From: Actinomycetota bacterium
Lineage (GTDB): Bacteria > Actinomycetota > Acidimicrobiia > Acidimicrobiales > UBA8592
Length of the DNA: 53,770 nt
NCBI GenBank assembly: GCA_902565595.1
Contig: CACFFD010000006.1
Coordinates: 1 to 53,770 of the forward strand
Direction: 5' to 3'
Under the pieces are notes generated by a model. The model saw only the letters and a list, made by a program, of their open reading frames with translations, did not search any database and was not told the origin of the DNA. Positions 46,258 through 47,518 of the stretch are shown here, piece by piece. The stretch's first letter is position 1. Each line of letters starts with the position of its first letter. The position numbers were made by a program, and so were the translations under genes.

Positions 46258-46330
46258 GCGGATGTAGCTCAGTTGGTAGAGCGCAACCTTGCCAAGGTTG
46301 AGGTCGCCGGTTCGAGGCCGGTCATCCGCT
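46258..46330 (+). tRNA. tRNA-Gly (anticodon GCC)
   Basis: Cloverleaf: acceptor GCGGATG/CATCCGC, D-arm GCTCAGTTGGTAGAGC, anticodon stem CAACC/GGTTG with loop TTGCCAA (GCC), T-arm CCGGTTCGAGGCCGG. Discriminator T at 46330; CCA is not encoded (CAG follows). Between this gene and tRNA-Cys there is a GGCAC-GTTT-GTGCC hairpin at 46392-46405. Confidence 0.96.
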
Positions 46331-46411
46331 CAGAAATCTAACACTCTGTAGATGATTAGTACTTGATCGGAGTAGGGTACTATTTGTTGAAGGCACGTTT
46401 GTGCCGGACAA

Positions 46412-46486
46412 GCGTCGGTGCCCGAGTGGCCTAAGGGAGCGGCCTGCAAAGCCGTACAATCGCGGGTTCAAATCCCGCCCGGCGCT
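46412..46486 (+). tRNA. tRNA-Cys (anticodon GCA)
   Basis: Acceptor GCGTCGG pairs with CCGGCGC (one T-G), anticodon loop CTGCAAA within CGGC/GCCG (GCA), T-arm GCGGG-TTCAAAT-CCCGC. Discriminator T at 46486; no encoded CCA. Actinobacteria often carry Gly-Cys-Val tRNAs together; here they are split. Confidence 0.96.
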
Positions 46487-46539
46487 CAAACACAAATAAG
46501 ATTCATGCGATGTGACTTGAGTCGAACTATTCTTCTGAT

Positions 46540-47307
46540 ATGAGTGATGTTCCGCGTGGGCCTGACTGGTGGCAAGATAAGGATGGACGATGGTATCCGG
46601 GTCATGTCTCGCCTAGCGAAGACGAAGAGCGAACTCGGAAAGAGCCTCTTGAGTCTCCACCGAGGTCGAAAGAGGAAGATGAAGAAAACCTTCCAGAGTA
46701 TTTTGCCCGAACATACGGATGGGGGGAGGAGTCAGATGATGGGGAACCCATTCTGGTCATAGGCGGCAGTAATGACAGTGATGATGGTGATCCAAAATAT
46801 ACGACACTTACAGAAAGGGCTTCAACCACTGTTCATCAGCCTGTCAGGTCAACCTTTCCTCCGGATTTGTTTTCAGGATCTCTAGGGGTCGTCGGATCTG
46901 TATTGCTTGTCATTGGTTCCTTTCTCGATTGGGCTACAGCAGGTGGGAGTCTTACTTCAGGAGCTATAGATGGTATAGCTGACTCAAACGGGATTGGGAC
47001 ATTAATTACTGGAGGGATATGCGCTTTCGTAGCGGGGTTACTACTTTCCGGACAGAGAAAACGGTGGGTTGGACTTGCAATGATCATCAGTGCCGGAATC
47101 GCTATTGCGCTTTCTATCTATAGCATTGTGGATATAACTAGTACTTCAAATAGTATTCCTGAGAATATTTTAAGTCGCTTTCCTACTATTGATGCAGCTT
47201 TCGCGAACAATGCGAAGTTGGATTTCGATTTAGGCCTCTGGGCGGTTTTAGGGGGCTCAGTTATCTCATTCTTGGCTGGCTTATCAGGCTTTAAGCGTCA
47301 TACGTAG
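46540..47307 (+). CDS. WWQ-motif membrane protein of unknown function
   Basis: A 255-residue protein between tRNA-Cys and tRNA-Val. The N-terminus DVPRGPDWWQDKDGRWYPG is a short aromatic motif that I associate with many Acidimicrobiia membrane proteins (compare DUF2510, PGWYxDP). Next is a long acidic, Ser/Asp-rich cytoplasmic region (~20-105), then four transmembrane helices (~112-132, 150-168, 175-198, 233-252). Function unknown. ATG 46540 lacks a Shine-Dalgarno; leaderless start possible. Confidence 0.75.
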   Translation: MSDVPRGPDWWQDKDGRWYPGHVSPSEDEERTRKEPLESPPRSKEEDEENLPEYFARTYGWGEESDDGEPILVIGGSNDSDDGDPKYTTLTERASTTVHQPVRSTFPPDLFSGSLGVVGSVLLVIGSFLDWATAGGSLTSGAIDGIADSNGIGTLITGGICAFVAGLLLSGQRKRWVGLAMIISAGIAIALSIYSIVDITSTSNSIPENILSRFPTIDAAFANNAKLDFDLGLWAVLGGSVISFLAGLSGFKRHT

Positions 47308-47356
47308 TTGTAGGAATGAGCAACAAGGAATTTTGACTGGTAGCATCATCGGTCTA

Positions 47357-47433
47357 GGGCCGTTAGCTCAGTTGGCTAGAGCACCTGCATGACGCGCAGG
47401 GGGTCGGGGGTTCAAATCCCTCACGGCCCACCA
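47357..47433 (+). tRNA. tRNA-Val (anticodon GAC)
   Basis: Acceptor GGGCCGT/ACGGCCC, D-arm GCTCAGTTGGCTAGAGC, anticodon stem CCTGC/GCAGG with loop ATGACGC (GAC), T-arm GGGGGTTCAAATCCCTC in part. Discriminator A 47430 and encoded CCA at 47431-47433, unlike the Gly and Cys genes. A possible coding start begins one base after the CCA. Confidence 0.95.
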
Positions 47434-47434
47434 T

Positions 47435-47518
47435 ATGAGAAAATCAACAATACGCATTGTCGCTGGAGTCACCGCCTTTATGATGATTGCAGCCTTACTT
47501 ATCCCTCTATTTCTTTAA
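47435..47518 (+). CDS. Possible 27-residue membrane peptide
   Basis: ATG at 47435, one base after the CCA of tRNA-Val, opens a 27-codon frame ending TAA 47516-47518. The product has a basic N-terminus (MRKSTIR) and a hydrophobic segment (~8-27) that looks like a single transmembrane helix or a signal peptide, with no cleavage site. There is no room for a Shine-Dalgarno; it would need to be leaderless after tRNA 3'-end processing. Too short to prove from one sequence; the hydrophobic pattern is the only support. Confidence 0.35.
   Translation: MRKSTIRIVAGVTAFMMIAALLIPLFL

Follow-up and report, generated by a model that had tools for sequence, protein, structure and literature searches.

The window analysed here, a 53,770-nucleotide stretch of DNA, is contig C6 of its host assembly (1.46 Mb, 63% complete) and carries on its + strand a tRNA-Val(GAC) gene at 47357–47433 (ARAGORN; Rfam RF00005, 65.8 bits), which ends with the discriminator base A at 47430 and an encoded CCA at 47431–47433. 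A lone T (47434, + strand) separates this CCA from the ATG at 47435, which opens a 27-codon frame, MRKSTIRIVAGVTAFMMIAALLIPLFL, read from the + strand at 47435–47518 and closed by TAA at 47516–47518. We annotate this frame as a small membrane peptide gene on the basis of its 27-codon length, its pN/pS ratio and its conservation up to the stop codon. The ARAGORN call and the translation agree with the layout of tRNA, CCA and frame given in a preliminary description of the locus. The basic start and single hydrophobic stretch noted there are likewise borne out by a basic N-terminus and a mean Kyte-Doolittle hydropathy of 2.2 over residues 7–27.

Upstream of tRNA-Val lies a 255-codon gene (46540–47307) with no Pfam or NCBIfam match, whose product, judged by eye, has an acidic N-terminal half and a hydrophobic C-terminal half. 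This 5′ neighbour is retained across the genus. On the 3′ side, the frame adjoins a formate-THF ligase gene in the window, which in three relatives (G014, G001 and G017) sits on a contig other than that of the tRNA, ruling out a unit formed by the frame and the ligase. Conservation of the 5′ but not of the 3′ neighbour groups the frame with the tRNA. The window also holds tRNA-Gly(GCC) and tRNA-Cys(GCA), clustered with tRNA-Val(GAC) at 46258–47433 and split by the 255-codon gene. A P. acnes study lists these three tRNAs in a single operon, in the order Val, Cys, Gly (PMC3848588), and the cluster seen here may be an old one opened by an inserted gene.

Conservation and coding character of the frame

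To gather same-genus loci, we searched 60 relatives at the DNA level and 198 genomes of the order at the protein level. The 3′ flank of tRNA-Val(GAC) was readable in nine genomes of the genus, the window's own included, and the counts rest on these nine; of the 18 genus genomes, two others (G012 and G003) break off within the tRNA, and for the remaining seven the search returned no tRNA-Val(GAC) locus. A complete frame was found in seven of the nine (G000, G017, G009, G014, G008, G007 and G002), each time of exactly 27 codons and free of indels. In G004 a contig end truncates it after CAAAATGAG, just past the ATG, and in G001 the tRNA is present, its 3′ flank is unrelated and the peptide frame is missing. 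The tRNA-Val of G001, which has an encoded CCA, is followed by a wholly different flank leading toward a frame that, from its translation, resembles pentapeptide repeats.

All eight loci with a frame start place the ATG 3–4 nt after the discriminator. The intervening spacer is CCAT in the window, CCAT, CGA, CCAT, CAAA, CAA and CATT in the six complete relatives, and CAAA in G004, so that CCA is encoded in just three of the seven complete loci. Among other genera of the order, an ATG 0–8 nt after tRNA-Val occurred in none of 16 loci (Fisher p = 8e-6 against the genus; 3 of 19 loci had been dropped for a short flank or lack of a pattern match). The preliminary description had allowed for coincidence, a reading that is contradicted by eight of nine same-genus loci with the ATG against none of 16 elsewhere.

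As a control, we inspected the 60 distinct tRNAs with flanks among the sequences collected, 11 of which have an ATG at −4 to +8 nt relative to the called end. Of these, six are the tRNA-Val peptide locus, each with 27 codons, and the remaining five open unrelated frames of 3, 8, 9, 11 and 56 codons. Conservation in relatives, together with these control counts, rules out a chance ATG behind tRNA-Val. A scan of the species-genome collection for a tRNA 3′ end followed by M-x-K-x-T codons returned six loci, apparently all on genus contigs already collected. At locus L004, an ATG stands directly after the called end of tRNA-His, and its 56-codon frame apparently enters another tRNA, probably by chance.

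Variation among the seven complete frames follows the pattern of a protein-coding sequence. At codon positions 1, 2 and 3, respectively, 13, 5 and 24 of 26 columns are variable (position 2 vs 3, Fisher p = 1e-7), and pN/pS pooled over 21 pairs is 0.23. Pairwise dN/dS ranged from 0.04 to 0.16 in the 11 of 21 pairs for which it could be computed, synonymous sites being saturated in the other 10. Mean pairwise identity is 0.71 within the frame; over the next 84 nt it is only 0.28 without gaps and 0.37 after alignment, similarity among loci stopping at the stop codon. Residues M1, K3, T5, A10, T13, A14, M16, M17, A20, L21, I23, P24 and L25 are invariant. The comparison of tRNA-Val(GAC) 3′ flanks that had been proposed at the outset, with a broken frame as the outcome that would speak against a peptide, therefore returned an intact frame under purifying selection. 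On these grounds, 47435–47518 is almost certainly a genuine gene.

An opposing reading takes the conserved stretch for an RNA element, such as a trailer structure, an attenuator or an attachment site, or takes its ATG for coincidental. tRNA genes are frequent integration sites, and the contigs of four relatives (G004, G002, G012 and G003) stop at or inside tRNA-Val, which would fit an attachment site. This reading is nevertheless hardly tenable: Rfam gives tRNA matches only, the 27 codons are kept without an indel, a paralogue exists at a separate locus, and we consider it refuted because of the coding pattern, seen in the third codon position and in pN/pS. As for the contig ends themselves, an assembly fork is their likely cause, given that the tRNA-Val sequence is up to 100% identical in other genera (G045); an integration site could also account for them.

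The product of this gene is predicted to be a single-pass membrane microprotein that would insert with its N-terminus inside, and the most ordinary guess at its role is that it regulates a membrane complex or forms a small subunit of one. In Pfam the window peptide scored at most 17.7 bits, where the cut-off is 27 (lowest E of the seven members, 4e-4), NCBIfam gave it no match (best E among members, 0.58), and PHROGs returned nothing convincing among 13 peptides (best E, 0.046); these searches thus assign it to no known small-protein family. A phage gene was rejected as well, given the unconvincing PHROGs result and phage records that match the tRNA part only, none covering 80% of the query. 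When 395 genomes of the class were searched, the strongest hit beyond the peptide's own genome had an E value of 6e-4 and lay within a 359-codon frame. Two small genomes of the class hold a 29-codon look-alike, MSKRTQKIIVIVVSSAMVITLLLPLLSAI (E 0.13–0.15; L102 from about 1536, L103 from about 1514), with no tRNA within the 3.1 kb examined around these loci. Autoregulation through Val codons was discarded, as the frame uses a mixture of GTC, GTT, GTA and GTG without pattern.

Transcription and proposed 3′ processing of the tRNA-linked copy

The absence of a ribosome site, pointed out in the preliminary description, holds beyond the window. GGAG, GAGG and AGGA are all missing from the 20 nt before the window's ATG, and a scripted scan of the same interval found none of them in any of six loci; in G002, where the upstream sequence was too short for the script, inspection by eye revealed no Shine-Dalgarno sequence in 26 nt. 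TANNNT is likewise missing from the 45 nt upstream of the ATG in all six loci with enough sequence. It is found instead 9–11 nt before the tRNA start in six of six loci with that flank, in the window as TAGCAT (47341–47346, + strand), a consensus match 10 nt before the tRNA that forms the putative −10 box of the tRNA-Val promoter. A −10 box about 6–8 nt before the start codon, the mark of leaderless transcripts made by a promoter, is present in none of the six tRNA-linked loci, so the tRNA-linked gene is not of that kind. It is very probable that the frame is transcribed together with tRNA-Val.

These features suggest the following sequence of events. The tRNA-Val promoter would drive a pre-tRNA-Val(GAC) whose 3′ trailer is the peptide frame, for which neither a separate promoter nor a ribosome site can be recognised. 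Endonucleolytic maturation of the tRNA 3′ end would then free a trailer starting 2–4 nt before the AUG, and this trailer would be translated as a leaderless mRNA. We regard it as probable that tRNA 3′ processing makes the leaderless mRNA of the peptide. The alternative of a frame extending into the tRNA was excluded: the spacer is 3 nt long in some loci and 4 nt in others, which puts the tRNA into different frames, hence no common frame reads in from it, and an in-frame upstream start codon exists only in G009 and G007, 15 codons back inside the tRNA.

To judge from the spacers, a leader of 1–4 nt would result from cutting at the 3′ end of the tRNA. The P. acnes study (PMC3848588) describes tRNA precursors cut within a few nucleotides of the 3′ end, CCA-encoding tRNAs often between the Cs, and a 5′-end map of S. 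coelicolor (PMC4681348) places cuts likewise within a few nucleotides of tRNA 3′ ends, often between the Cs where CCA is encoded. Because only three of the seven complete loci encode CCA, the likelier cut here appears to fall directly behind the discriminator or to split the two Cs, so that 2–4 nt would precede the AUG. The earlier proposal of an mRNA starting U-AUG is revised in this respect: processing of the tRNA 3′ end stays the best-supported mechanism, and the single-U leader gives way to one of 2–4 nt. Such a leader may work less well than an AUG at the very 5′ end, as the title of one paper suggests. As a counterpoint, exonucleolytic 3′ trimming from a farther cut would destroy the frame.

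The search for the responsible enzyme used the RNase Z model of NCBIfam (TIGR02651), which reached its cut-off in none of the 18 genomes of the genus, yet also fell short in 5 of 14 controls. Candidates in G000 and G009 scored best against a cyclic-nucleotide phosphodiesterase model, below the cut-off of that model too, and a third candidate, from G000, matched arylsulfatase and then ELAC structures. P. acnes is reported to have no obvious tRNase Z (PMC3848588).

Translation might conceivably take place on the uncut precursor, with ribosomes entering at the tRNA-like fold or 70S ribosomes scanning to the AUG and no 3′ cut involved. The nearly constant distance between tRNA and ATG would suit such entry, and scanning initiation is named alongside leaderless initiation in the abstract of a review (PMC9031893). 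We nonetheless hold this to be improbable, given that a Shine-Dalgarno sequence is missing, that the start codon lies next to a stable tRNA fold, and that the tRNA needs to be excised anyway in order to work. Release of the trailer by tRNA processing is accordingly the reading that we retain.

A putatively promoter-driven paralogue

A second copy of the peptide gene, 27–29 codons long, was found in six genomes (G001, G003, G005, G012, G015 and G017). On one side it is flanked by a gene that Pfam identifies as a short-chain dehydrogenase; on the other, five of the six genomes have a gene that we call YbaK-like from reading its sequence and not from a database match. Five of six paralogues have TANNNT exactly 6 nt upstream of the ATG, at the distance that marks leaderless transcripts. 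Across the genus, TANNNT at this gap of 6 precedes 16 of 164 mechanically picked genes, compared with a mean of 2.9 at other gaps. Promoter sequences of the leaderless type thus appear to occur in the genus, that of the peptide paralogue among them.

These observations bear on another explanation, namely that the tRNA-linked frame is a real gene with a non-consensus promoter of its own inside the tRNA gene and is leaderless by its transcription start, tRNA processing being uninvolved. The paralogue seems to be driven in just this way, leaderless-type promoters are enriched in the genus, and data for P. acnes give 79% of starts as matching TAnnnT, so that some do not (PMC3848588). The tRNA-linked loci offer little room for it, however: TANNNT is missing upstream of the ATG in all six, and the −10 region would coincide with the acceptor stem and T arm, whose sequence is fixed by tRNA function. 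We therefore judge a separate promoter unlikely, if less so than translation of the uncut precursor, and keep to tRNA processing as the source of the mRNA.

The two copies differ in distribution. DNA upstream of the dehydrogenase gene was readable in 14 genomes, with the paralogue present in six and absent from eight, and a branch of the dehydrogenase tree (support 100/100) separates the six carriers from the rest. Either side of this branch includes genomes with the tRNA-linked copy, G017 on one and G014, G009, G007, G008 and G002 on the other; this copy is for that reason probably the older. G017 holds both copies on one contig. G001, also on the paralogue side, is without the tRNA-linked copy; it keeps the tRNA with no peptide behind it, so the tRNA link is not essential, and this one genome suggests that the link can be given up. 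The loss in G001 could be a secondary rearrangement. The peptide had initially been proposed to be tied to tRNA maturation, and the association is upheld by the spacing in eight of nine loci, while the paralogue and G001 show that it is not obligatory.

Taken as a whole, the data incline us, by a modest degree, to a bacterial form of tRNA punctuation, in which maturation of tRNA-Val(GAC) would yield, one for one, a leaderless mRNA for a microprotein whose output would track tRNA synthesis and not a promoter of its own. One lineage would later have escaped this coupling by gaining the promoter-driven paralogue and losing the tRNA-linked copy. The pair of tRNA-linked gene and promoter-driven paralogue lends itself as a natural control for the contribution of the tRNA link.

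Relation to known systems

Prli42, KdpF and CydX are single-pass membrane microproteins of about 30 residues with a basic N-terminus and one hydrophobic span. The tRNA-Val peptide is like them in size, in its basic N-terminus and in its one span, a likeness of features, no Pfam match above the cut-off and no NCBIfam match pointing to one of sequence. If the proposed mechanism is true, annotators would also be directed to the first bases after tRNA genes, where genes of fewer than 30 codons easily escape notice.

Studies on mycobacteria (PMC4633059) and P. acnes (PMC3848588) describe leaderless mRNAs, including ones that encode small proteins. The tRNA-linked gene would resemble these in having an AUG at or near the 5′ end, and it shares with them the lack of a Shine-Dalgarno sequence and a small, overlooked product; the paralogue fits by the position of its promoter. 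In the actinobacterial cases, however, the 5′ end is the transcription start, whereas here maturation of the tRNA 3′ end would create it. Bacterial leaderless mRNAs are mostly regarded as products of transcription starts, and our search of the literature, largely confined to open journals, turned up none in bacteria that owes its 5′ end to tRNA 3′ processing.

In E. coli, tyrT-tpr and tyrU-tufB place a protein frame downstream of a tRNA on one transcript, and tpr is small and basic. The likeness lies in the protein frame 3′ of a tRNA; in E. coli, however, the frame is not known to begin directly at the CCA, whereas here it stands directly behind the tRNA. Closer in layout is the tRNA punctuation of mitochondria, in which excision of a tRNA sets the start of the leaderless mRNA immediately 3′ of it. 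The start codon studied here is likewise directly 3′ of a tRNA and conserved there, and if the proposed mechanism is true, tRNA maturation would serve as a device of gene expression in bacteria, as it does in mitochondria. The two differ in scope: punctuation is a genome-wide rule in the organelle, whereas the arrangement described here, an ATG three or four bases past the end of a tRNA, occurs at one locus in one genus of uncultured Acidimicrobiales.
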